Origin: Acidimicrobiaceae bacterium
GTDB lineage: Bacteria; Actinomycetota; Acidimicrobiia; Acidimicrobiales; Acidimicrobiaceae
Direction: 5' to 3'
Length of the DNA: 64,000 nt
Assembly (NCBI GenBank): GCA_013044385.1
Contig: JABEUN010000051.1
Span: 1-64,000, forward strand
Shown one piece after another: positions 25,011 to 63,005 of this stretch. A program made the position numbers and the translations under genes. The first letter of the stretch is position 1. Every line of letters starts with the position of its first letter. The notes beneath the pieces were generated by a model, which was not told the origin of the DNA, made no database searches, and saw only the letters and a program-made list of their open reading frames with translations.

Positions 25011-26561
25011 TCAGTTCACTCGCCTTTCGAGCCCCTCCCAGAATGGACCCCTCAGTTTGAACTTCTGGAGCTTGCCAGTAGCTGTTCGGGCAAGTTCTGT
25101 TCGAAATTCGACCGACTTCGGGCACTTGTAATGAGCGATCTTTGTACGGCAGAATTCGATTAGTTCTGAATCAGTGACCTCCCCGTCGGGCCTGAGCACG
25201 ACGAGGGCCTTAACTTCTTCTCCCCACTTCTCACTTGGTACTCCGATCACTGCCACCTCTGCGACCGCGGGGTGTTGGAATAGCGCATCTTCAACCTCGA
25301 TGGAAGAAACGTTTTCGCCTCCAGTGATGATTACGTCCTTCTTCCGGTCTGAGATAGTGAGATAACCGTCGGTCATATATCCACCGTCTCCGGTATGAAA
25401 CACGCCTCCCGACATCGCTTCGGCCGTCGCCTCCGGATTGTTCCAGTATCCGCCGAATACCACATTCGACTTAGCGAGAACCTCACCCTGACTATCCACC
25501 GTGATCTCTGTACCGATTGCAGGAGTGCCCGCCCTAGATAGCAGTTTGGATCGATCAGCGATGGAGAGGTCGTCCCACTCAGAACGACGTCGATTGACAG
25601 TTAGCACCGGAGAGGTCTCAGTCAAGCCATAGATCTGGATGAACTCCCAGCCAAGTTCGGTCTCGACCCGTTCGATGGTCTTCGATGGAGGTGGGGCGCC
25701 CGCCATCACAATCCTCATCAGGTCCCTCCCGGGTACGTCGAAACCATTCTCTCTGCGCTTCTCTGCAGCATCGAGTGTCGCAGCCCAAACTGCTGGAGCG
25801 CCGCAAGCAAGAGTGACCCCCTCCTGCTCGACCCTCTCGAGTATCTGCTCTCCGACAATTTTCCGCTGGATCACGTGAGTTCCGCCCATGGCGGTCACTG
25901 CATAGGGCATCCCCCAACCATTGCAGTGGAACATGGGCAGCGTGTGCAGCAGTACGTCTCTGTCGGTAACGGTCGTGTGCCAACCAAACATTGCCGCATT
26001 CAGCCATGCGTTCCTATGCGTCATCTGGACACCCTTAGGCCGGGCCGTTGTCCCCGAGGTGTAGTTGATGGAACAGGTAAAGTCCTCGTCTCCCTCCCAC
26101 GGAGTGGGGGGTTTTTTGCCCTCTGGAAGCTCACAGAAGTAGGCTTCATCCTCAATTCCATCGAGGACTATGACTTCCTTGGCGTTCACTCCGGCAACCA
26201 GGTGCTGAAACTCCTTGTCTACCAAAACGACCTGAGAACCCGAGTGATCCACGATGTACTCGATCTCCTCTGAACTAAGTCGATAGTTCGCAGGAACGAG
26301 AATCCTTCCATAACCACTCACCGCATAGTACGAAACCAGGAACTTCCCAGAATTCGGGCTGATCAATGCAACTCGATCGCCAACCCCAACCCCCATGTCC
26401 TCGAGCATCCTAGCCATATTGAGCACCCTGGAATTAAGTTGCCGGTAGGTCAATCTACCCAAATGGCCCACTGCATCCGGATCGTCGACTAACGCGAGTC
26501 GATCAGGATATACCTCTACAGCACGCCTAAGAAAATCGGCCACGTTCAATGGAACCTTCAT
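25011..26561 (-). CDS. Fatty-acid/carboxylate-CoA ligase (AMP-forming)
   Basis: Activates a carboxylic acid through an acyl-AMP. The phosphate-binding loop INYTSGTTARPKGVQMTHRN, the motif YGLTETSPVLTVNRR, and the hinge/C-terminal block (YLTISDRKKDVIITGGENVS, then SIEVEDAL) with the catalytic Lys near the end (RTATGKLQKFKLR) are all present. The chosen ATG follows GGGGGGAG; an upstream start would add 10 residues. It is convergent with PIG-L by about 10 bp. Sequence style is that of medium/long-chain acyl-CoA synthetases; substrate uncertain. Confidence 0.88.
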   Translation of the reverse strand: MKVPLNVADFLRRAVEVYPDRLALVDDPDAVGHLGRLTYRQLNSRVLNMARMLEDMGVGVGDRVALISPNSGKFLVSYYAVSGYGRILVPANYRLSSEEIEYIVDHSGSQVVLVDKEFQHLVAGVNAKEVIVLDGIEDEAYFCELPEGKKPPTPWEGDEDFTCSINYTSGTTARPKGVQMTHRNAWLNAAMFGWHTTVTDRDVLLHTLPMFHCNGWGMPYAVTAMGGTHVIQRKIVGEQILERVEQEGVTLACGAPAVWAATLDAAEKRRENGFDVPGRDLMRIVMAGAPPPSKTIERVETELGWEFIQIYGLTETSPVLTVNRRRSEWDDLSIADRSKLLSRAGTPAIGTEITVDSQGEVLAKSNVVFGGYWNNPEATAEAMSGGVFHTGDGGYMTDGYLTISDRKKDVIITGGENVSSIEVEDALFQHPAVAEVAVIGVPSEKWGEEVKALVVLRPDGEVTDSELIEFCRTKIAHYKCPKSVEFRTELARTATGKLQKFKLRGPFWEGLERRVN

Positions 26562-26717
26562 TGCTCTCCCCCCTAAGGCCCCGGGCGCCAAGCGACACCG
26601 TTCGCGATGGCGATCCTCCTCAGTAGCAACAATAGATTACACAAATACTGGCTGTCCTAAAAGGGATGAACCCGCCAAGTCAATCAATTATGTGAAATCA
26701 AACGTCGATAGAGCTCT

Positions 26718-29084
26718 TCAAAGGGTTGACATCTCCATCATGCGCCCAGTCCTGGCAGAAGTGATTTGCTTTGAAAGCTCTATCGTTCTCGAACGCTCGA
26801 GGCATACCTCTCCGCGTCGTTCGAGCGTCAGCGATTGCCCTTTTGCTAGACTCCACAGGGCAGCGGTAACAAGCTGATTCCCTTCGAAATGAGAACTTGC
26901 TAGGCCAGAGACCCTAAGGGAAGCAATGATTGCGACACGCGAAAGGTCAAACTTCTTTCTCGCTCCAATCCAGTCCATTTCCGAGTCGACCGCTGGCCGG
27001 TCATGCATTACAAGCTCGTCGTACCCTAGCCGAATATCTCTATCTTCGGGAACGGCCCCCTGTAGCATCCGGATGAAATCTGCCTGAAGGGCCGCTGCAT
27101 CACAATCTTTGTCTACCGTCCCAAGACTCCTCAACATCGTACGAGCAGGAAGATCGAGCACCAGCGCCGAAACCGATACAACAACTTCACCGGCTGCAGG
27201 CACGTCACCTTTCAATGTCGGCTGATCTGGTCGGGTCTGCAGTACGGTCAGTTCAGCGGGCCCATTCTCAAATCCGACCTCATCGATGGTGCGAACTGAT
27301 GAGTTTCGGAAGTACTTGAGTTGTCGCTCGTTTAAGACCCTACTACCCTCCCCACATTCGAGACGGTACTCTCCTCTGTCTCCAAATAGCGTGCCGGTGC
27401 AGGTCTCTAAACCCTCCGGCCTGAATGATGGTGGCACAATCACTCCGACACCATCTGGTCCTGATCTTTCGATCTGGATCTTCATTTCTCCGAGGTGCCA
27501 TTCCGAAATATCCCTCGCCTCTTGTGCACTTGCTACCACGACAGCCCTGGAGCATGCCTCTGAAAACTCGTCCAGTTTCTGCTGCACTCTTCCAACTGCC
27601 TGACTATTGGTCGGCCAAATGGTTAGTCCGAGATCTTCGGAGACTGCGAATCTAAGGTGCCCTTGGGCTTCTCGCCTCAGATCAAGGCGATGCTGGATAT
27701 CGTCACTGGCGGACCTCAACAGTATGATGCTGTCCTTCCCGTCGACCAAGACTCTGTCTACGATCTCCGAAGGGGCAACGGTGCCGGAATGGACAACGAC
27801 AAGGGTGCCTCCAGCCGAAGTCGAACCATCGGAAAGTTTGGCAGAGAGATAAGACGACCAGAGCGAGCTGGACTTAAGCGGTGACGGATGAAGTTCCACC
27901 AATTCTTCGTCAGGCATCCGCCTAACTTCGGAAGCTAACCGATAGTTCGCAAGTCCCGATCCCTTGGCCCGTAAGACCTCCCGTATCGACTCAGGGTCGC
28001 CTCCACGCCTAGCAATGATCCTCTTTGCCAGTTCGAGAGTACCCAAATCGTCCGCAAGTCTGCCTAAAACGCCTCCGTAACTGGACGAACCGCCGTCGAA
28101 GCACGACTTGATGCCGAGCAGTTCAATCGCTGCGGCCAGCGCATCATCTATTTCCCCTACCTCTGCAGATTTAAGCGCCTTCCTAACTTCTGCATGCAGT
28201 GGTCCACGGGCAACCCCTTCCAAACGATTCAAGAACAGCCGCTCTAGAACTACCGCCGGATCTGGCGAAATCCCATTCGATCGATCGAGCCATGACCGCC
28301 GCAAATCTGTTAGGTTCGAAACCACCTTGGAAGGTCGGTCCGTTAAAGCCGCAATCTGGCGTGCTCTTGGGGATCCGCCATACCGCTTTGCGGACGAAAG
28401 TACGGTGGCCCTACGCGAACTGAACTCCTCCTCCAGCTTGAGAATCCGTTCAAATTCCACTGCCTTCGAGCCGACATCGCCACTCGACATCAATCCGGTC
28501 ACTCGATTAAGTTGGAGCCAGAGTTCATGGCGGTAGACGTTCCGAAACATCGACTCAGCCCTGTACAACCTGCCACTATCGACAGCCCGAGATTGTAAAG
28601 CATCCTCAGCGAAATCTGGACGTATTGAATTTATTATCAAGAGGTGGCTGTGCAGGTGCGGATCATGGCTCCTCGATAGGGCGTGATCGAAGCTGACAGA
28701 GGACAGTCCAGAACTCCTGCGCCACCTCGGGCCAATTGTCACTGCGGATTCAGTCTCCTCTATGTACCGGTGGGTGGCGTCTACAGCAGCGACATGTGCT
28801 GAATGAATCGCCGATGCCCACTTGTCCTCAGTCAATGCCCAGAGAACTGAGACGGACTTAGGAGCGGAAAGTACGAGTTCAAAGCCAGCTACCGTCCGCC
28901 TAGATCCGAAGAACTCTGTCCGCAAAATCGTTTCGATTTCGCGTAAATCCAGCAACTCTGCCTCAGAAGAACCAAATACCGCCCCCCGTCCCAACTTTCT
29001 ACCACGACCGCTCCCTAGCTCATTTAATCCGGCAAGTTCTGATCTGGAGTAGTATTCGAGTCCCTCAAACCTTACAGATCGCAT
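26718..29084 (-). CDS. MobF/TrwC-type relaxase-domain protein with no recognisable helicase P-loop
   Basis: N-terminal half matches a TrwC relaxase: tandem tyrosines at residues 11-12 followed by a Gly-rich GSGRGRKLGRGAVFG segment, the family block FELVLSAPKSVSVLWAL (about 69-84) and the metal-binding histidines in FDHALSRSHDPHLHSHLLI (His134, His145, His147). Such enzymes nick DNA at oriT and bind the 5-prime end. The rest (about 550 residues) occupies the helicase position, but I find no GxxGxGKT Walker A; the nearest match reads GTLVVVHSGTVAPSEIV. It stands alone, with no traG/virD4, oriT or plasmid genes nearby. The ATG at 29082-29084 follows GAGGGTG. Either a domesticated relaxase or a remnant of an integrated element. 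Confidence 0.75.
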   Translation of the reverse strand: MRSVRFEGLEYYSRSELAGLNELGSGRGRKLGRGAVFGSSEAELLDLREIETILRTEFFGSRRTVAGFELVLSAPKSVSVLWALTEDKWASAIHSAHVAAVDATHRYIEETESAVTIGPRWRRSSGLSSVSFDHALSRSHDPHLHSHLLIINSIRPDFAEDALQSRAVDSGRLYRAESMFRNVYRHELWLQLNRVTGLMSSGDVGSKAVEFERILKLEEEFSSRRATVLSSAKRYGGSPRARQIAALTDRPSKVVSNLTDLRRSWLDRSNGISPDPAVVLERLFLNRLEGVARGPLHAEVRKALKSAEVGEIDDALAAAIELLGIKSCFDGGSSSYGGVLGRLADDLGTLELAKRIIARRGGDPESIREVLRAKGSGLANYRLASEVRRMPDEELVELHPSPLKSSSLWSSYLSAKLSDGSTSAGGTLVVVHSGTVAPSEIVDRVLVDGKDSIILLRSASDDIQHRLDLRREAQGHLRFAVSEDLGLTIWPTNSQAVGRVQQKLDEFSEACSRAVVVASAQEARDISEWHLGEMKIQIERSGPDGVGVIVPPSFRPEGLETCTGTLFGDRGEYRLECGEGSRVLNERQLKYFRNSSVRTIDEVGFENGPAELTVLQTRPDQPTLKGDVPAAGEVVVSVSALVLDLPARTMLRSLGTVDKDCDAAALQADFIRMLQGAVPEDRDIRLGYDELVMHDRPAVDSEMDWIGARKKFDLSRVAIIASLRVSGLASSHFEGNQLVTAALWSLAKGQSLTLERRGEVCLERSRTIELSKQITSARTGRMMEMSTL

Positions 29085-29354
29085 TTTCACCCTCACTTAA
29101 ACCACTCACGGCATTCAACAACCGCAGAATCTCGAGTCCTTTGAGGGACTAATACACTCCCAGCGGTCGTCACCACTAAAGTTCGCCGACGACACGTCGA
29201 AATATCTTGAAGAGAGACAGGCGGATAGCGATATCGTTAGAAGCGGATTCGGGGCCTCGATCGACTCGATAGTCTGGGAAGACGTGCGTCCGTCGTGCCA
29301 GTGGCAACGAAGTCGCAATCGAACTCTAGCCTGTCCAGTGGTGGAGGTGGAGCT

Positions 29355-29930
29355 ATGTTCGAATATGAGATTGAAAGAGCCACCGACACTAGGTTGCGTC
29401 TGATCACACACTATGACAGCTTTGCCCTGTTCAACCTCATCGATTCTGACAGGGAACATCTTGGTGAGTTCCTTAGCTGGGTACACGACACAAAGTCAAT
29501 CGAGGACACCGACAACTTCGTTACAAACTGCCTACTTCAGTTGACCACCGGGACAGGCTTCGTCACCGGCATGGTACTCGCAGGAAAGCTCGTTGGCGTC
29601 ATTGGATTCCAGCCAATCAATTTCGAATCGCTAACAGTAGACCTGGGATACTGGATCCACAGTGACTATCAGGGTCTGGGAGTCGTAACCAAGTCAACCG
29701 TGGCGATGACTACTATCGCTTTCACAAGGATGGGCCTTCAGACGGTGACTATCACCGCAGATCAGCGCAACATTCGATCGCGCGCAATTCCGGAGAGACT
29801 CGGCTTCCAACCCGAGTCGGAATTGGAAGTTGAAGGATCTACCCAGATCGTTTATGCGATGAAGCGTTCGGCTTGGATCGGTGAGAGAAATGGACCAACT
29901 GACAGCCTTGATGGACAGCTGACGGCCTAA
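29355..29930 (+). CDS. GNAT-family N-acetyltransferase (RimJ/RimL type)
   Basis: Acetyl-CoA-dependent acetyltransferase of 191 residues. The family core is LVGVIGFQPINFESLTVDLG, then YWIHSDYQGLGVVTKSTVAM (acetyl-CoA pyrophosphate-binding region) and NIRSRAIPERLGFQPE. The ATG at 29355 is chosen because GGAGGTGG lies 8 bases before it; a longer frame reaches 29295. Its end overlaps the convergent pafBC stop by 4 bp. The substrate (protein N terminus, antibiotic or metabolite) cannot be told. Confidence 0.85.
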   Translation: MFEYEIERATDTRLRLITHYDSFALFNLIDSDREHLGEFLSWVHDTKSIEDTDNFVTNCLLQLTTGTGFVTGMVLAGKLVGVIGFQPINFESLTVDLGYWIHSDYQGLGVVTKSTVAMTTIAFTRMGLQTVTITADQRNIRSRAIPERLGFQPESELEVEGSTQIVYAMKRSAWIGERNGPTDSLDGQLTA

Positions 29931-31885
29931 GAAATTACCCCTGCACCTGAGATTACAGATAGGGCGAAATCCAGAAAGTCCCGCTTCCAGTCAGGTTCCC
30001 CAACTACCCGCGCATTCGGCCCAAGCGAGCAAAGTGTCTCGAAAAACCACTTCTTTGAAACGATGGGTAACTCAAGCAACCATCTTTCGTCCCTACGAGC
30101 AAGTCGCCTGTAGTAGCCGCGCGCGACCTCGTCAATCTTTCTGAGACCAATCTCGTCAACCTCCAAGTACCCCAATGTCGCATCAGCCGGAAGCCTCAGT
30201 ACTTCGGGTTTTGAGAACTCCACCGCAACCTGCTCTGATCCGTCTAGTGCCTTAGATTCCGACATGCTGAGAATTCGAGATACCTTGAAAATCCGGACCT
30301 CGCTTATCTCGAGATCCAGGGCCTCAAGATACCAGTTCCCATCTCGGCTGAAGAGTCGCACCGGGCTGACGGTTCTGTCTTTCAGGCGGCCACTTGAATG
30401 CGAGTTGTAGAGCATGTCTATTCCATGACCAGTAGATATGCAGTCACTAATGACAGATAGGCGACCGTCTCCATCGATCTCAATTGAAAGTGGATCCTCC
30501 ACTCCTCTGTCCCTGAAGGCCTTACCCAACTTTTCCACAGCCGAACTCAGTGCGGGAGAGTCGATACCAGTCGCGGAAATGACCGATTTCGATGCTGCGA
30601 AAAGTAGCAAAGCTGCCGGATAATCCAGTCGTTGAGGCAGTGCAAGAGCCGAATCAACATTTACTAACACCTCATCGGCCTCGGGATCGACTATCAGTTC
30701 AAAAAGCATCTCGGGCGTATACGGCGGCAAACCACACGTAGCAGCTGCCTCAAGGAGTCCAATCAGGCGTTCCCTGTCTACCTCAAATCGCTCCGCCAAG
30801 TAGGAGATGGATGCCCTCTTCATCGTCTGCAGAACCGGAAGAATCGAACACAAAAGCCTAAATCTGTCATTGGCATTCCTAATGGCCGCAGGGTGCTTAG
30901 ATCGCCCCTGCACTGCCCCGTTATCGTCAATCGATCCACCGAAGTCCGATTCCTGCCAATCGACGAAGGCTCCGTCAGCATGCCCCGTCATCGTCCGGTG
31001 GATCCAATCCGACAACTGCTCCAACATGGTGTCTGGTCCAATGATCTTCAGACGTCCACCGAACTGGAAGATGAGGTCTAAGAATGCAGATGAATTCGAT
31101 ACCGATACCTCGAATAGATCGGCTCCAGATCCATCATCGCCGATCGGATCAATCCCGAGTTGGGATGCAAGAATGGTGGAGTCATCTCCACGAACCGATA
31201 CGCAGACTAGCGCACTCTCCTCCACCTGTAGAGACCATTGATCCGATGGAAATACCAATTGAAGATCAAAATCCACCGGAATCTGGTACCGCTCACCATC
31301 TTCGATCGTCGCAGGTCCCTGAATCCGATCGACCCTGAAAACTCGCACCGCGGCCCTTGTCCTGTCGTATCCGACCAGGTACCACACACCCCAGCGGAAG
31401 ACAATCCGATAGGTCTCTACCTCTCGTCCAATTCCGGAGTAATCGAAGCGCAGCAACCGACTCTTAGATGCCGCTTCGTATATGACTGGTAGCGCAGTGG
31501 GGCTGGGAATGTCGACGAATATAGGAGAGTCCGCTTCCAGCGCGAATCCGAGTCGTCCAGCCGCATCCAGCGGACTTGTACTTCCGAAACTCACTGACGC
31601 CAGTGCCGAACCCAGCGCCACCAGCTCATCCTCATTAAATTTGACATCCAAAACTATGTCTGCAGGATCGATGAAGTACCCATAACCTGCGTGCCCCTCA
31701 ACGTCAACCGGAACTGTACGAATAGGCATTCCTGCTCGCTTCAGATCAGCCTTTGCGCGCTCGAAGATCTGCCGCCTTGCGGCCTCTCCCTTAGGCATTC
31801 CTTCGAGTGAATTCTGGATCTCATCCTGTGTAAGTGGTCTAGGCGCCTCAAGGAGCATCTGGACCAAATTGACGAGTCGAATCAT
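29927..31885 (-). CDS. pafBC: Fused PafB-PafC WYL-domain transcription regulator
   Basis: In actinobacteria PafB and PafC form the activator of the LexA-independent DNA-damage response. Here two such units are in one chain of about 652 residues. First half: winged HTH (IRLVNLVQMLLEAPRPLTQDEI), then a WYL domain (LLRFDYSGIGREVETYRIV, then FRWGVWYLVGYDRTR). Second half: HTH-like region (FRLLCSILPVLQTMKRASIS, then YLAERFEVDRERL) and a second WYL domain (LFSRDGNWYLEALDLEISEV). A longer frame starts at TTG 31930, but the ATG at 31885 fits the PafB N terminus. It sits 20 kb from the SOS mutasome genes. No paf or proteasome genes adjoin it. Confidence 0.85.
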   Translation of the reverse strand: MIRLVNLVQMLLEAPRPLTQDEIQNSLEGMPKGEAARRQIFERAKADLKRAGMPIRTVPVDVEGHAGYGYFIDPADIVLDVKFNEDELVALGSALASVSFGSTSPLDAAGRLGFALEADSPIFVDIPSPTALPVIYEAASKSRLLRFDYSGIGREVETYRIVFRWGVWYLVGYDRTRAAVRVFRVDRIQGPATIEDGERYQIPVDFDLQLVFPSDQWSLQVEESALVCVSVRGDDSTILASQLGIDPIGDDGSGADLFEVSVSNSSAFLDLIFQFGGRLKIIGPDTMLEQLSDWIHRTMTGHADGAFVDWQESDFGGSIDDNGAVQGRSKHPAAIRNANDRFRLLCSILPVLQTMKRASISYLAERFEVDRERLIGLLEAAATCGLPPYTPEMLFELIVDPEADEVLVNVDSALALPQRLDYPAALLLFAASKSVISATGIDSPALSSAVEKLGKAFRDRGVEDPLSIEIDGDGRLSVISDCISTGHGIDMLYNSHSSGRLKDRTVSPVRLFSRDGNWYLEALDLEISEVRIFKVSRILSMSESKALDGSEQVAVEFSKPEVLRLPADATLGYLEVDEIGLRKIDEVARGYYRRLARRDERWLLELPIVSKKWFFETLCSLGPNARVVGEPDWKRDFLDFALSVISGAGVIS

Positions 31886-32130
31886 TGGATCAAGTTGAGC
31901 CACATTGAGATGGTAGCGGTTCGACAACAAGTTCGATTAGAGAGCGGAATGGGCCTCTCGAATGGTTGGAGTGCCAAATGATGACAGTATCTATTTCTGC
32001 CACAGTCTGGAATTTCTTGGATACAGATTCTCGGGTAGAATCGAATAAATCAAAGGAAGGGCTATTTGCTCTCCACTTGTTTCAGCAGCTCAGGCTTTGT
32101 TTTCCCAGCACAAGAAGGGGAGGTTACAAG

Positions 32131-33087
32131 TTGGTCTCAGTCCTTGCCGCGATTCGGACCTACCAAGTCGATCTCTCCTTCAAGTTCCACGTCACCGAGA
32201 TATTGGCAACTTTCCTGGCCCTACTCGCCTACTTCATAGTCATGGCGCACCACGGTAAAAATGCCCAATCACCGGGTTCTGTCGGTGCTCACCCAGCTAG
32301 CGGAAGCCGTCAATCCGGCGTCAGAGGCCTGATTAGGTCCTTCTTGGCGGCGAGCTCTCCGAAAGAGCGACTGCTGTTTCTGATTGGTGCTTCGTTCCTT
32401 TGGCTAGTGGAAGGTTGGCCTTTGGCCGATTTAGCCAACGCCTCGATATTCGCGTATCTGATGCAGAACTTGCTCTTGAGCCTAGTGGCCGTCCCATTGA
32501 TGCTCATGGGCACCCCGAGGTGGGTCTTCTCAAGACTAACTAAACCTCGCTACCTGGACTGGGTCCTTTCCAAGCTCACCCGTTCGCTGGTCGCAACGTC
32601 CATCTTCACCTTGACCATGACCTCCGTGATGCTCCCGGACGTGGTCAACTCAGAGACTGGCTCCATCTTGGTGAGCTCATTGGTTCACCTTTGGGTTGGT
32701 TTGGCCGCCGCAATCATGTGGATCCCTGCGCTTCGTCTACTACCGGGCATTCGACAACTATCTACAGCAGGTCGAATTGCATACCTCTTCACGCAGAGCC
32801 TCCTCCCGAACATACCTGCGATCGCCCTAATCTTTGCCAAACACTCTTTATATCCTACAATCGCACCATACGTCAGGTCCTTGGGAATCTCCGCAGTAGC
32901 TGACCAACAATTGGCAGGTGGCGTGGGGAAAATCTTCTCATTACTCATACTTTGGGGCGCCGCAGTCGTCATTCTGATTAGGGCAAATCGAGACGAAGAG
33001 CTTGGGCTTGACCCAGAACTAATAACATGGGATGACGTGGAGCGCGAATTCGAGCGCACTTCTAAGCGAGTTACGCCGGAGGCATAG
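32131..33087 (+). CDS. CtaG-like (caa3-type) cytochrome c oxidase assembly membrane protein
   Basis: About 318 residues with seven or more membrane helices. The block RLLFLIGASFLWLVEGWPLA, then YLMQNLLLSLVAVPLMLMGT and the C-terminal helices match the Caa3_CtaG family, thought to help deliver copper to cytochrome oxidase. I chose TTG 32131 because GGGGAGG precedes it by 7 bases and the preceding frame (from 31966) is not membrane-like. It is divergent from pafBC and 60 bp upstream of typA on the same strand. No oxidase genes are in this window. Confidence 0.8.
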   Translation: MVSVLAAIRTYQVDLSFKFHVTEILATFLALLAYFIVMAHHGKNAQSPGSVGAHPASGSRQSGVRGLIRSFLAASSPKERLLFLIGASFLWLVEGWPLADLANASIFAYLMQNLLLSLVAVPLMLMGTPRWVFSRLTKPRYLDWVLSKLTRSLVATSIFTLTMTSVMLPDVVNSETGSILVSSLVHLWVGLAAAIMWIPALRLLPGIRQLSTAGRIAYLFTQSLLPNIPAIALIFAKHSLYPTIAPYVRSLGISAVADQQLAGGVGKIFSLLILWGAAVVILIRANRDEELGLDPELITWDDVEREFERTSKRVTPEA

Positions 33088-33149
33088 CCACCACACAATC
33101 AAATCGATTGGATTGCAACGCGCCAAATCCAATGGTTCCTAGGAGAAAA

Positions 33150-34985
33150 GTGCCCGTTCGGGAAGATTTACGCAACATCGCAATTATCGCTCATGTCGAC
33201 CATGGCAAAACCACGCTCGTAGACGCAATGCTACGGCAGTCTGGTGCGTTTAGGGACAATCAAGAGGTGCTTGAGCGCATACTCGACTCGGGCGATCTTG
33301 AGCGGGAGAAGGGGATCACGATCCTCGCCAAAAACATCTCCATCAACTGGCATGGCATGAGGGTGAACATTGTCGACACGCCAGGTCACGCAGATTTTGG
33401 AGGTGAGGTTGAGCGAGGACTCCTGATGGTGGACGGTGCTGTTCTGCTGGTAGATGCTGCAGAAGGACCATTACCTCAGACACGCTTTGTACTTCGCAAA
33501 GCACTCGACCTCAAGCTACCTATCATCACTGTTCTAAACAAGATCGACAGGCCAGATGCCCGCCCCAAAGAGGTACTTGACGAGATCTTCGAACTTTTCT
33601 TCGACTTGGGTGCGGATGAGCACCAGATAGAGTTCCCCACTCTATACGCATCTGGTCGGTCGGGTTGGGCCAGCCTCAGCCCCGACGAGCACGGTGACGA
33701 CCTGTCTGTCCTATTCGACGCGATCCGGGACGACGTACCGGCGCCCACCTTCGAGGCAGACGGCAAACTAGGCGCTATGGTCTCGAACATAGATGGTTCC
33801 CCCTATCTCGGAAGACTTGCCATCTGCAGGATCGACAGCGGCAGACTTAAAAAGGGGCAGCAGGTCGCATGGTTCTCACGCGAAAACGGAATGAAAAAAG
33901 TCCGCATATCCGAACTATTCGTTCCTGACAACCTCGACAGGAAGCCTGTGGACGAGGTCGGTCCCGGCGAGATCGCCATTATTGCAGGACTCGAGGATGC
34001 CTCTATAGGAGACAGCATCTCCGATCCAGACAACCCAGTGCAGCTACCACCGATCACGGTCGACGAGCCAGCCATCTCGATGACCTTTTCTGTCAACTCT
34101 ACGCTCATGTCCGGTCGTGAGGGCTCAAAAGTCACCGCCAGACTGATCGGCTCCCGGCTGACGCAGGAGTTGATCGGAAATGTCTCGCTTAAGGTCCTCA
34201 ACACAGACAGAACCGACACCTGGGAAGTACAGGGCAGGGGCGAACTCGCCTTGGCCGTTCTGATAGAGACGATGAGACGAGAGGGGTTCGAACTCACCAT
34301 TGGTAAGCCACAGGCGATCACGAGGGTCATCGATGGCAAACTCTGCGAGCCTTACGAGCGTCTTGAAGTCGATATACCGGAAGAGTACTTTGGATCGCTG
34401 ACTCAATGCGTCTCGCCTAGGAAGGCCACGTTGGTATCGATGACATCCAACGGCAGCGGATGGACAAGGGCGATCTTCCATATTCCTTCCAGGGGTCTGC
34501 TTGGCCTAAGAAGTGATGTCCTGTCCCAGACGAAGGGCACTGCGATCATTCACCACGCCTTCGACGGCTACGCAGCTTACGCTGGCGACATAAAAGCCCG
34601 AGCCTCCGGTTCACTTGTTGCAGATAGGACCGGTGCGACCACCGCATACGCACTTATTAACCTTCAGGACCGAGGTCAACTATTTGTCGGACCGGGCGAA
34701 GAGGTCTACGAGGGAATGGTGATCGGCGAGAACTCTCGAACAGAGGACATGGACGTCAATCCAACCAAGGAAAAGAAGCTGACAAATATGAGATCGTCAA
34801 CTTCGGAAGAGCTGGTCAGACTGAGCCCTCCGAAGCGCCTGTCCCTTGAAGCGGCTCTGGAGTTCATTGCCGAGGATGAGTGTCTTGAAGTCACACCCCT
34901 TTCGGTAAGGATCCGCAAAACCGCCCTCCAGCAGACTGACCGAGCAAGGTCAAGAAGCTCGAAAAGAGTCTCAGAACAAGACTAG
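33150..34985 (+). CDS. typA: Ribosome-associated GTPase TypA/BipA
   Basis: Translational GTPase of the EF-G type that works on the ribosome in assembly and stress adaptation. G1 IAHVDHGKTTLVDAML, G2/G3 RGITILAK-type region and DTPGHADFGGEVERGL, G4 NKIDRPDARP are present, followed by domain II, an EF-G-like domain III/V, and the BipA-specific C-terminal domain with FVGPGEEVYEGMVIGENSR and LTNMRSSTSEELVRLSPP. The GTG at 33150 follows AGGAGAAAA and gives the canonical start MPVREDLRNIAIIAHVDHGK. It overlaps the convergent lipoprotein gene by 4 bp. Confidence 0.96.
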   Translation: MPVREDLRNIAIIAHVDHGKTTLVDAMLRQSGAFRDNQEVLERILDSGDLEREKGITILAKNISINWHGMRVNIVDTPGHADFGGEVERGLLMVDGAVLLVDAAEGPLPQTRFVLRKALDLKLPIITVLNKIDRPDARPKEVLDEIFELFFDLGADEHQIEFPTLYASGRSGWASLSPDEHGDDLSVLFDAIRDDVPAPTFEADGKLGAMVSNIDGSPYLGRLAICRIDSGRLKKGQQVAWFSRENGMKKVRISELFVPDNLDRKPVDEVGPGEIAIIAGLEDASIGDSISDPDNPVQLPPITVDEPAISMTFSVNSTLMSGREGSKVTARLIGSRLTQELIGNVSLKVLNTDRTDTWEVQGRGELALAVLIETMRREGFELTIGKPQAITRVIDGKLCEPYERLEVDIPEEYFGSLTQCVSPRKATLVSMTSNGSGWTRAIFHIPSRGLLGLRSDVLSQTKGTAIIHHAFDGYAAYAGDIKARASGSLVADRTGATTAYALINLQDRGQLFVGPGEEVYEGMVIGENSRTEDMDVNPTKEKKLTNMRSSTSEELVRLSPPKRLSLEAALEFIAEDECLEVTPLSVRIRKTALQQTDRARSRSSKRVSEQD

Positions 34986-58992: not shown

Positions 58993-59182
58993 GATAGGGC
59001 CCAAAAGGACCGCTTTGGCGAAGTGTCACGATACGCGGGTCAAAGAACTCAACGGGTGCCCTACGTAAGTGAAGCACTACCCATGCCCTAAACGGTATGC
59101 CGGCGCAAGGGCGCCGCTCCGGATGTTTGGAACTACCCGTCGCCGAGCCCTGCACGCGAGGCGTCGAGCGGTCTACCTGCGG

Positions 59183-60214
59183 CTACCGAGTTACTGGGCG
59201 CCTTTGGTGGGAGGCGGTTCGGTTCAGAGAGTCGAAGGAGATGTGGTCGAATGAGAGTTTGGGTTCGTTACACATCCGAAGTATTGGGTACTCCATCGTA
59301 CTGATAGCTTCGGCGCCGACAACTTGAACCCTGCCCGCCCGATCGGCCAACTTTGCCCACTCTCCAGCCAACAACTGCCAAAGGTAGTTGCGCTCCTCGG
59401 GCAATCCCGTTTTGGTCAAGCGCGTAACGATCTCCTCGATCTTCGGCGACTTGTCGGCCCATTCACGGAGTGTGGGGTCGAGGACTGGATGTGACGCGCA
59501 TTGGTCGAGGCTCGGTAGTGATGACGGCTCAATGAGGAAGATGAGCTCAATCTCAATCTGGTCGGCATCCCACGTTGAAACTGGCCTGACTCGAATCTCG
59601 TTGACATTCCTCATGAGAGCACCTTCGTTCCTTTGACCATCGTGCTTGTCCCTGAAGCGCCTCCGAAGCACGGTGACTGCCTTTTCCATCTGATCGGGAA
59701 AGGCAAAGCGGCCGAAGTAGTCCGCAACTGCTTGCGCGAACCGAAGACGTGCTTCGTCGCTGCCGCAGCCATCACCTTTTCCATTGGCCGCAGACAGGAC
59801 GGCCTTCTCGAGAGTTGCGAAACGGTCTAGGTCGGCGAAAGCGTTAGGCGCCAGTCCTGGGAGGTGCGCATACCTCGGAGTCCAGCCCTTCGCAGCTCGA
59901 GTCTGCTCGTCACCATCCAACCTGACGACTGAACATACTTGGACGAAGGGTCGACCACCACCAGCTTCCGGCGGCTGCCAGCAAGCTCTGACGATGTCGC
60001 AGGTCTGTGAAACGACAACCAAGAAGGCGTCGCGCGCCCTGGTCACGCCCAATCCGGTGGCACTGAGTTCGGCTGTCGTGGAGGTAAGGGGCCGGTCACG
60101 GTCAGCGATCCAGACTGTGTCGCCTTGCTCGAACACGTGACCTTGCTGCCACAGCTTCTTAGTTGCATCGGTTGCCGCGACTACTTCTTCGCTGGGTTGC
60201 CAGATCTCGGTCAC
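59183..60214 (-). CDS. 343-residue protein of unknown function with SQTCDI motif (island module)
   Basis: GTG start 23 bp after the HTH gene. The sequence has a striking FLVVVSQTCDIVRACWQPPE at about residues 84-103, with adjacent Cys and Asp as in a possible active site, then EARLRFAQAVADYFGRFAFP and IELIFLIEPSSLPSLDQCAS. No membrane segment, signal peptide or P-loop. I do not recognise the family. Its co-localisation with TIGR04255-like and HTH genes on an inverted-repeat island suggests it is the effector or a partner of that module. Confidence 0.75.
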   Translation of the reverse strand: MTEIWQPSEEVVAATDATKKLWQQGHVFEQGDTVWIADRDRPLTSTTAELSATGLGVTRARDAFLVVVSQTCDIVRACWQPPEAGGGRPFVQVCSVVRLDGDEQTRAAKGWTPRYAHLPGLAPNAFADLDRFATLEKAVLSAANGKGDGCGSDEARLRFAQAVADYFGRFAFPDQMEKAVTVLRRRFRDKHDGQRNEGALMRNVNEIRVRPVSTWDADQIEIELIFLIEPSSLPSLDQCASHPVLDPTLREWADKSPKIEEIVTRLTKTGLPEERNYLWQLLAGEWAKLADRAGRVQVVGAEAISTMEYPILRMCNEPKLSFDHISFDSLNRTASHQRRPVTR

Positions 60215-60237
60215 TGCGGCCTCGTCACCTCGTCTGT

Positions 60238-60819
60238 TCAGGACAACGGGATGTCCACCGTGGCAACGGGGACGGTGGGGCCGATCGAAATAGCTGGTCG
60301 CGAACTCTCGATTGGCGGACCGGCCATCAACCGCGGACCTGTAGGTGCGATCTCGCTGAGGAGCTTAGCGAAGGGGGACTGGCCGTTCGCAGTTACCGTG
60401 AAGAAGCCGTTGCGGACAGCGGTCGGGCCCACTCCATTGATTGCCCTGCGTGCTTCTTCTAGGCGAAGTAGGCGCGCCACGTTGTGAGCCACCATGTTGC
60501 CACCTTCAACCCAGAAGTGGACGGCCCGACGGCTAACCCTGAAGAGTTCAGCGATCTGCCCCCAGGTGAGGCCACTTTCCTCCTTGAGCTTGCTCACCCG
60601 CTGCGATGGCGTGAGTTGGTTCGTACCGTGGATCACGTGCTGAGACGTCAAGACCGACGTGCTCGCCCCAATGTCTTGGGGTACTACCGCTGAACTCATC
60701 GTGAAGCCGCCGGGCACGAGGAGGCCAGCGCCGAAGAGACGTAATGCGGACGTTGATCGCGATCTACTACCACTGTCCGTCACGCTGCCCGACAGCGCCA
60801 CTCTTGGCATCAGGTCCAT
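60238..60819 (-). CDS. Helix-turn-helix protein of the island module
   Basis: 193 residues. Residues about 70-115 read QRVSKLKEESGLTWGQIAEL, then FRVSRRAVHFWVEGGNMVAH, an XRE-like or sigma-like helix-turn-helix with a Trp after the recognition helix. The N terminus (about 65 residues) and the Pro/Gly/Ser-rich C terminus look unstructured. GGAGGTGAGG precedes the ATG. It starts 40 bp after the TIGR04255-like gene and likely regulates or targets the operon to DNA. Confidence 0.72.
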   Translation of the reverse strand: MDLMPRVALSGSVTDSGSRSRSTSALRLFGAGLLVPGGFTMSSAVVPQDIGASTSVLTSQHVIHGTNQLTPSQRVSKLKEESGLTWGQIAELFRVSRRAVHFWVEGGNMVAHNVARLLRLEEARRAINGVGPTAVRNGFFTVTANGQSPFAKLLSEIAPTGPRLMAGPPIESSRPAISIGPTVPVATVDIPLS

Positions 60820-60859
60820 GCTCAGACCTCACCTCCGAATCGCCGTAGGAACTCGTCAG

Positions 60860-61621
60860 TCACGGCCCAGCGGAGAAGGCATATGCCCTCTTGGCCCCAA
60901 GGCGCGTTTCCTCTACAACGCGATTTGTCGAGAACAGCTGGTCACTCTCCTCGACAAACGCGTCGACGTCGAGAATCCAACTTCTTTCGGGTACGGCTTC
61001 GATACCAGGGACGATGACGGTGTTCGCGGGAACAACGCCCCAGGTGGCTTTGACCTGCATCGAGTTCAGGTGGAAAAGTGCCTGCGAAACACTGGCCACG
61101 AGCACCTCGCCGTCCGAGCGCTCGATGTTGCTAGGAGCAAGGATCTCTGATCGAACCAGCGTCGACATGGCCTCAACAAACTCGTCGCCCTCGACCTGAT
61201 CCACGTAGCGCACTCCGATCCGATCGACTACCGTGGGACCGGGATCGAGCGCGCTGAGGGCATCTAGCACCTCGCGCCATCGTTCGAGAAGATGATCACG
61301 TGTCGTGTACGTCGAGGTCTCAAGAGCGACAAAGTCCTGTGCGAGAACGACCGCCCAGGGGCCATTGGCCTCCGACATCCGCCAAACCGTTCCCGAAAGT
61401 TGGCTCTGAATCGGACCGGCAGGACCGACCATCAGTACCATAGGAGACTCCTGGCGTGTGACGGGATAGCGCGCGCGGAGCCGCTCTTGGAAGCCCAAGA
61501 TGCCCTCCGAGGTACCGATCTTGGCGATCATCGGAAACCGAACCTGCGTCAGGACCTTGACTAACGGAGCGTCGGGCAAGGGGACCTCGGTTAGATTCTC
61601 GTCTGCGAAGATGCCAGCCAC
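60860..61621 (-). CDS. TIGR04255-like protein of the island module
   Basis: Resembles the sporadically distributed TIGR04255 family: the N terminus TEVPLPDAPLVKVLTQVRFP, then GFQERLRARYPVTRQE, WRMSEANGPWAVVLAQDFVA, YTTRDHLLERWREVLDALSA and VVDRIGVRYVDQV fit that pattern from memory. About 253 residues from the GTG at 61621, which has GGGAGG 5 bases upstream; a longer frame starts at 61645. First gene of the three. The family is of unknown function, patchy in distribution, and often found in accessory regions. Confidence 0.72.
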   Translation of the reverse strand: MAGIFADENLTEVPLPDAPLVKVLTQVRFPMIAKIGTSEGILGFQERLRARYPVTRQESPMVLMVGPAGPIQSQLSGTVWRMSEANGPWAVVLAQDFVALETSTYTTRDHLLERWREVLDALSALDPGPTVVDRIGVRYVDQVEGDEFVEAMSTLVRSEILAPSNIERSDGEVLVASVSQALFHLNSMQVKATWGVVPANTVIVPGIEAVPERSWILDVDAFVEESDQLFSTNRVVEETRLGAKRAYAFSAGP

Positions 61622-61841
61622 CAATGCCTCCCTTTCCCACTTCACGCTCTACTACACATTTGATTGTCCTGGTTCTCGCGGAAGCGGCAACCTGTTACTT
61701 GCTAGGTTTCGGAGCAGCCTCTGACGCTGCAAGGACTCACCGTCTTGCACCAGCCCTGTCGTGATGGGGCGTGCTTCGGTGCACTCGGCCACGCTTGCGA
61801 GCGAGAGCCCTCGCCCAAGCCGGCGTGGGCGCCGTCTACCA

Positions 61842-61994
61842 TCACTCGCAGCGTACGAGGCCCGCGAGTAGGCGACCTCCAGTAGCTGCTTCTACCATGC
61901 GGCCCATCGGCATGTCCCGCCCGGAGGTCAGGGTCTCGCGTAGTCCGAAATCCTCACCCACGATGAGCAGGAGGTATGGGTCGTCCGCGCTCAT
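61842..61994 (-). CDS. Possible 50-residue ORF in the decayed part of the island
   Basis: ATG at 61992-61994 to TGA at 61842-61844 encodes DDPYLLLIVGEDFGLRETLT followed by a Met/Gly-rich stretch. It has a coding look but lies just downstream of a frameshifted remnant, so it may be a broken gene. A plus-strand frame of 51 residues at 62283-62438 (containing YNLWDLKGRKILSGVVVAIN) is a similar weak candidate. Confidence 0.2.
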   Translation of the reverse strand: MSADDPYLLLIVGEDFGLRETLTSGRDMPMGRMVEAATGGRLLAGLVRCE

Positions 61995-62009
61995 TTCCGC
62001 CACGAGGTC

Positions 62010-62265
62010 CTAGCGTGTGAGCGGGAGTGAAACCCGCTGCTCGATGACAGGCTGCATGTTGATGACGAGTTCGAGTGCCGAGAGGTCGACTCGGACGAAG
62101 TCCTCAGCTATCTCGGAGGGGCGGCGGGACTCGCTGAAGTCCGAACGAGCGAAAGACGGCCTCCCGGGAGTTCACGGGCTGCCCGTCTATCTCCAGGCAG
62201 ACGCCGACCAGTTCGAGCAGGAGCATTCCGTTCTCGAGGCCGATCAAGTAGTCCAGAACTCCCAC
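62010..62265 (-). pseudogene. Frameshifted remnant of a small gene
   Basis: Starting at a GTG near 62265, one frame reads GVLDYLIGLENGMLLLELVG, then VCLEIDGQPVNSREAVF, and stops soon after. A second frame takes over with SESRRPSEIAEDFVRVDLSA, then LELVINMQPVIEQRVSLPLT and a TAG at 62010. Together they look like one protein of about 85 residues broken by a single frameshift. Family not recognised. Confidence 0.4.
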
Positions 62266-62476
62266 GGTCCCATGCTACAAGCATGGATACCTCACTCACA
62301 GAGCCGCGTGCCCGTCGCGTCTACAACCTTTGGGACCTCAAAGGACGGAAGATCCTCAGTGGCGTCGTTGTAGCGATCAACGATACGACGGCGGCCAACG
62401 AGCGCTCAGCCTCGCCGTCGGACAAGCAAGACAGTTGATCCTCGGTCGCTCCCGCTGGCTCCAGTGAAGACCCTAT

Positions 62477-63005
62477 CTACAGTGCCTTAGTTGACTTCAT
62501 CCCCTCGGCGAGCTGGATCAGCGACTGGGCGGCGATGGCCGACGTGCAGCGGTGCCATGGCGGCGTTAATGTCACCTTGGTTGATTGCCCGGTGAGTCGC
62601 GCTGGTCGGACAGGCGTCGCCGTGGTTCACGACGACGCGTGAAAGCGCGGGAGTGAAGCGGTGAGGCTCATCACCGTTCTTAGGAAAGCAGCGGTAGCGC
62701 CGGCGCTCGACGCATCGCGCTCCACTTGTCTTGCCGTCACGAAACATACGGCTGATCGGGTGGTTCGGGCAATTCTCGGGAGGCGAGGGTGGGGCAGGCT
62801 GGACTGGCTCATCGCCTGCCTTCGGAGCGAAGAACTGGTGTGCAGGGTCGCCGATGGTCGGCTGGCATTTGTAGCGCTGGACCGTGACGCCATGCTGGAC
62901 ACGAACCCCGTTGCGGCGGATCTCACTGGTGGCGGGCCGACCGAGATCTGACGACCTAGCGGTCGCAACTTGGTCGGCTGGGGTCCGCGCGTCTGACAAG
63001 GGCAA
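62477..63005 (-). pseudogene. Decayed zinc-ribbon transposase-like gene
   Basis: The open frame codes paired zinc-ribbon-like repeats: VQRYKCQPTIGDPAHQFFAP and then CPNHP with RRRYRCFPKNGDEPHRFTPA, followed by HGDACP. This pattern is one I know from transposase-like proteins of actinobacteria. After HGDACP the frame loses sense, while a shifted frame continues with SAIAAQSLIQLAEGMKSTKA to TAG at 62477. The catalytic part is absent. It begins just inside the right inverted repeat, the usual place for a transposase start. Confidence 0.6.

Follow-up and report, generated by a model that had tools for sequence, protein, structure and literature searches.

What keeps a gene for a MobF relaxase, an enzyme family that serves as a hallmark of mobile elements, alone among ordinary chromosomal genes? 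The question is raised by a gene in the window, that is the whole stretch of 64,000 nucleotides analysed here from an Acidimicrobiaceae bacterium (contig JABEUN010000051.1), which a preliminary description had read as an orphan relaxase without helicase, being either a domesticated nickase or the trace of an integrated plasmid. In our reading, it is probably a chromosomally domesticated MobF relaxase forming, with the regulator PafBC and a soluble VirD4-type ATPase, a module around a helicase-less HUH relaxase in about twenty Acidimicrobiales families.

The relaxase domain and the lost helicase

The gene and its parts are the following:
26718..29096, minus strand: domesticated MobF relaxase-like gene, 792 aa from GTG 29096; likelier start ATG 29084, giving 788 aa
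28278..29054, minus strand: TrwC relaxase (HUH) domain, aa 15-273, with nucleophile Y15 and the H138/H149/H151 triad
26721..28199, minus strand: C-terminal extension, aa ~300-792, without P-loop or detectable helicase homology

The ATG at 29084 is preceded by a plausible Shine-Dalgarno sequence (AGGGTG) and agrees with the end coordinate given in the preliminary description. The window protein matches Pfam TrwC (PF08751) at E=1.9e-37 (129.9 bits against a cut-off of 25) over aa 15-273 only and NCBIfam MobF at E=1.3e-33 (116.9 against a cut-off of 100); no other TrwC match occurs in its 2.8 Mb genome. Its nearest solved structures are the relaxase domains of F TraI and R388 TrwC; the best match of its AlphaFold model is TrwC 1omh (Foldseek E=5e-13, relaxase region only), and the relative L213 matches TrwC at E=6e-18 with a TM score of 0.86. 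The features shared with the MOBF relaxase-helicases (R388 TrwC, F TraI; PF08751, NF041492) are the N-terminal HUH fold, the Tyr nucleophile, the His triad and the SAPKSVS block. In GTG numbering, the tyrosine pair Y15-Y16, SAPKSVS and H138 with H149/H151 were all found. Since Y15, K80, S83, H138, H147, H149 and H151 do not vary among 31 relatives of 16-29% identity to the window protein, the motif match is not due to chance. In a second alignment (32 rows, other families) Y14, H151, H162 and H164 are invariant, and the first tyrosine, the FxH histidine and the HxH pair are kept without exception in both. The relaxase identity and the motifs first noticed (tyrosine pair, SAPKSVS, His triad) are consequently upheld as present and invariant in relatives, with the precision that the tyrosine pair is the first of two such motifs and the second is absent.

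In the C-terminal part of the window relaxase no helicase or AAA family of Pfam or NCBIfam was found, even at E<=1, and the Walker A pattern [AG]x4GK[ST] occurs nowhere in the protein, in agreement with the earlier claim that Walker A and helicase are missing. A degenerate helicase in this half was considered and set aside as unproven (HHalign probability 0.1-0.5%). Structure prediction, proposed as a check at the outset, brought Foldseek matches for the relaxase region only, the model being of low confidence (pLDDT) beyond about aa 375. Orthologues at the same locus in Acidimicrobiaceae are also devoid of Walker A, as are all relaxases linked to PafBC (0 of 73, all loci collected), whereas most unlinked long relaxases have it; conversely, almost every relaxase with a helicase met in these searches stands away from PafBC. 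A second tyrosine motif, EDYYxGxGEaPGRW or RYYaExGtPPGRW, is typical of the relaxases with a helicase; it is absent from the window protein and not conserved in PafBC-linked and Acidimicrobiaceae proteins. Of 90 Walker A relaxases, 71 have two tyrosine clusters. The scoring relied on tyrosine clusters and a reading of the N-termini, as plain counts of tyrosine pairs misread spacing variants. One clear exception to the correlation was met, an unlinked Walker A relaxase of 984 aa (L168) that also has no second tyrosine motif.

Judging from their sequences, the proteins of family f28 look like intermediates in helicase loss. HHalign matches their C-terminal half to the long relaxases' helicase (100%, E=3.5e-61), with the P-loop GPAGTGKT turned into GARWAGSS, Walker B lost and EDYY of the second motif changed to EDHR. 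The L140 relaxase still matches TraI_hel_assoc_N, the TraI helicase-associated domain. For the C-terminal half of the Acidimicrobiaceae proteins, unlike that of f28, helicase homology was not detected by HHalign.

Chromosomal position and descent

The neighbours that define the locus are these:
25011..26591, minus strand: AMP-binding ligase, downstream syntenic flank conserved in Acidimicrobiaceae
29295..29930, plus strand, opposite to the relaxase: GNAT acetyltransferase, between relaxase and pafBC in the window's genus
29927..31930, minus strand: fused PafB-PafC (HTH-WYL-WCX twice), of the ssDNA-sensing DNA-damage activator family; in most relatives it immediately precedes the relaxase
31966..34985, plus strand: ctaG and bipA/typA, upstream syntenic flank, conserved

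The neighbours scanned, over about 12-45 kb of the window, comprise RNase HII, a cyclase, a CofC-like protein, PIG-L, the AMP-ligase, GNAT, fused PafBC, CtaG, BipA and others. As first noted, no mobile-element family, integrase included, was found among these proteins. The relaxase orthologue is flanked by the same gene order in most Acidimicrobiaceae genomes, across genera, and the gene is also present in a single-contig genome of 2,158,157 bp. Relaxase and PafBC are no longer neighbours in genus groups g4, g5 and g7. In genus group g3 (L045, L046, L051, L054, L059, L062), 1.1-2.8 kb separate relaxase and PafBC, leaving room for an extra gene. Synteny in relatives had been named as a way of telling domestication from plasmid integration; the position, fixed over most of the family with pafBC linkage across the order, favours domestication. 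An integrated plasmid or integrative mobilizable element is not supported, the position being fixed rather than variable and the flanking genes scanned holding no integrase.

That the gene is the decaying remnant of an integrated plasmid would agree with the missing helicase, the fast sequence evolution and the poorly conserved C-terminal half. However, about 30 members of the family have open frames free of stops, most of them at one and the same locus, and the active-site residues are invariant. In addition, both halves have a dN/dS well below 1: most close pairs lie at about 0.13-0.33 over the relaxase domain, and the C-terminal part also stays <1. The gene is therefore not decaying. Synteny and dN/dS together led us to reject the remnant, which we regard as extremely improbable. 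Of the two origins first offered, domestication is thus favoured by synteny, purifying selection and the missing P-loop, and the plasmid trace is not supported for the present gene.

Relaxase-domain phylogeny was another check named at the outset. The grouping of domesticated and Walker A relaxases is far from random, and in a balanced tree of 51 rows the domesticated relaxases fall on one side with a support of only 42, while a larger tree places the fast Acidimicrobiaceae clade among Walker A forms; the branch of this family is long and its placement unsure. Common descent is argued better by the fixed synteny than by the tree. From these sequences, domestication may have occurred once or a few times.

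Upstream of the relaxase, the intergenic region aligned within the genus displays no clear nic-hairpin. A short stretch around AGACTATC (window 29097-29294) is common to the genus there and is a candidate promoter or nic-like site. Elsewhere in the window, positions 59000-63000 have a G+C of 0.59-0.63, against about 0.54 in the remainder.

Linkage to PafBC and to a coupling protein

The fused protein at 29927-31930 carries PF13280, PF19187 and PF25583, with two HTH-WYL-WCX modules and the PafC HTH, matches the PafBC structure 6sj9 (E=5e-25) and is the sole PafC-type protein of the window genome. It shares the HTH, WYL and WCX domains with mycobacterial PafBC (PDB 6sj9; PMC6789036, PMC11804915), of which it is a natural PafB-PafC fusion; in mycobacteria PafBC is linked with the proteasome locus (PMC6789036), whereas PafBC of the window type is linked with the relaxase. 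In other Acidimicrobiales families pafB-pafC, as two genes or as one fused gene, is followed directly by the relaxase in the same orientation; the gap is often 0-60 bp, and in some cases the ORFs overlap. These short gaps suggest that pafBC and relaxase would be co-transcribed in many relatives. The relaxases of these families are shorter, mostly 345-580 aa, which corresponds to the relaxase domain and a small C-terminal part, and in family f23 a TrwC match was present in 38 of 41 genomes, including genomes of 1.5-2 Mb. Related loci were found by an alignment-based scan, a single-protein scan having given none. In a class-wide sample, relaxases at the loci fetched from other orders are long and have no PafBC nearby. 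A literature search brought no paper joining PafBC with a relaxase, nor pafB with relaxase and Actinobacteria.

WYL control in the manner of BrxR or CapW raises the idea of an immunity to plasmids or phages, in which a relaxase-like nuclease and an ATPase would act on incoming ssDNA. HUH relaxases do act on ssDNA, and two reports (PMC9122601, PMC9122588) describe WYL regulators governing several defence systems. We hold this very unlikely, given that the genes keep a fixed place between core genes in many families and are found in almost every genome of some, unlike patchy, mobile defence islands, and that the regulator is homologous to PafBC, with no other PafC-type protein in the genome.

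The window genome also encodes VirD4/TraG-like proteins, of which the partner considered here (L280:7894-9147) lies on a contig other than the relaxase's. It has 417 aa, the Walker A GPPRSGKT and a match to Pfam T4SS-DNA_transf (PF02534, E=6.5e-26), and its neighbours, whose N-terminal sequences we take to be thiL-like and recG-like, are presumably chromosomal. At 47 loci, nearly all from other families, a coupling protein of the same type directly adjoins the 3' side of the relaxase in convergent orientation; at adjoining loci the proteins match T4SS-DNA_transf and GP[PST]RSGKT is intact in nearly all. With VirD4/TraG/TrwB coupling proteins (PF02534, PF12696) the partner shares the RecA-like ATPase, Walker A and the TraG-D_C domain, from which it differs by its chromosomal location, its convergence with the relaxase, the lack of an N-terminal transmembrane segment in nearly all of 52 proteins (hydropathy scan only, maxima <1.9) and the lack of a detected VirB4. 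VirB4 (PF03135, a family that may miss divergent actinobacterial VirB4) had no match in the window's own genome and 10 related ones, 11 module-bearing genomes in all.

Among 297 genomes of the order, a relaxase match was found in 87 of the 88 with a strong coupling-protein match (E<1e-55) against 65 of the 209 others (Fisher p=1e-31, a test that ignores shared ancestry), the count pooling domesticated and plasmid-type relaxases. In a phylum-wide sample, strong coupling-protein matches are almost wholly within Acidimicrobiales. At the level of sequence, these comparisons show the domestication, the fixed locus, the loss of helicase and second tyrosine motif, and the partnership with PafBC and coupling protein. 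PafBC linkage, loss of the second tyrosine motif and coupling protein are points on which the preliminary description was silent. It had named conjugation genes adjoining the relaxase in related strains as evidence against its reading, and a VirD4-like coupling protein does adjoin there; however, it stands at the same fixed spot and lacks an N-terminal membrane anchor, and no VirB4 was detected in 11 module-bearing genomes; it is therefore read as a second domesticated part.

Conjugation processes DNA with two parts, a relaxase and a VirD4-like ATPase; that these adjoin in many families, with the catalytic residues kept, would fit the core of a fixed integrative mobilizable element, whereby the chromosome would be mobilized in an Hfr-like manner with a T4SS acting in trans and PafBC would tie transfer to damage. 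The second tyrosine motif and the helicase, which serve to complete a conjugative round, are nevertheless lost, nearly all coupling proteins are without the N-terminal membrane segment, VirB4 went undetected in the genomes scanned, and relaxase and coupling protein lie apart in Acidimicrobiaceae. Such a mobilizable core seems unlikely to us.

Possible role of the module

Relaxases such as TrwC and TraI cut ssDNA by linking it covalently to a tyrosine, and coupling proteins such as VirD4 and TrwB are ATPases moving DNA or nucleoprotein. Mycobacterial PafBC, for its part, is activated by ssDNA (PMC11804915). Combining ssDNA sensing, ssDNA cutting and a coupling ATPase, we propose an intracellular ssDNA-processing module; more specifically and more tentatively, it may be an undescribed DNA-damage module in which the DNA-processing core of conjugation was turned into an intracellular machine for ssDNA processing or repair under an ssDNA sensor, a possibility we place somewhat short of an even chance. 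Its biochemical role, namely cleavage, contact between partners and a part in DNA damage, is what we infer from the sequences. In such a mechanism, ssDNA arising from damage or stalled forks would be sensed by the window PafBC, following the mycobacterial precedent in the literature. Probably co-expressed with PafBC in most relatives, the relaxase would then bind and cut ssDNA via Y15 and, as its invariant residues suggest, form a reversible 5'-phosphotyrosyl adduct. As it has a single tyrosine motif and lacks a helicase, it would act at individual sites, which it would cut and reseal or otherwise process, rather than carry out a full conjugative round, and the coupling ATPase might serve as the motor in place of the lost helicase, moving or stripping relaxase-bound ssDNA within the cell.

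Several observations weigh against this PafBC-module reading: the coupling protein is on another contig in the window genome, the GNAT gene interrupts the pair in the window's genus, relaxase and PafBC lie apart in g4, g5 and g7, and the promoter motif of PafBC was not found. The latter (TTGTCRGTG-N8-TAnnnT) was sought upstream of relaxases and of pafBC without success and with no excess upstream of pafBC; regulation by PafBC therefore stays a proposal. A lone half-site, located 419 bp before the start of the window gene, falls inside the GNAT gene and is not conserved, and was dropped as evidence.

A relaxase fold could also modulate PafBC activation as a non-catalytic ssDNA-binding adaptor, acting as a sponge or carrier of the ssDNA signal. 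The tight pafBC linkage and the dependence of PafBC activation in vitro on ssDNA concentration (PMC11804915) are consistent with this. The Tyr nucleophile and the metal-binding histidines are however invariant in both alignments, and binding alone would not need them, so that we consider the adaptor quite unlikely.

As to known systems, the domesticated relaxase differs from R388 TrwC and F TraI by the absence of helicase, Walker A and second tyrosine motif, by having no T4SS found, and by its fixed chromosomal locus with PafBC and vertical pattern. RAYT/TnpA-REP proteins are mobile-element HUH nucleases that became resident chromosomal genes; they belong to another HUH family (Y1 transposase) with other partners, and REP sequences are not implicated for the window relaxase. 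Built from known families, the gene is, on sequence grounds, a real, conserved and chromosomally fixed relaxase. Relaxases are taken as a sign of mobility, yet here a relaxase family passing MobF cut-offs is a permanent part of the chromosome in many families, and surveys count such genes as mobilizable elements. A 2011 survey noted actinobacteria with many relaxases and few T4SS (PMC3158045), and domesticated copies would account for part of this excess. The hosts form a large group from soil, peat and acid-mine settings, and the link between an ssDNA-sensing damage regulator, an ssDNA-cutting enzyme and a motor partner is testable in culturable species, e.g. Ferrithrix thermotolerans.

Two other proteins of the coupling type were seen in the window genome. 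A second VirD4-like ATPase (G000:C1:21306-22280, L281) has neighbours that look like flagellar and chemotaxis genes, and similar proteins of 430-480 aa occur in most genomes of the family. The third, a TraG-D_C protein (G000:C7:9300-9641, L282), belongs to a cluster whose members look von Willebrand-type, Hsp70-like and DnaJ-like.
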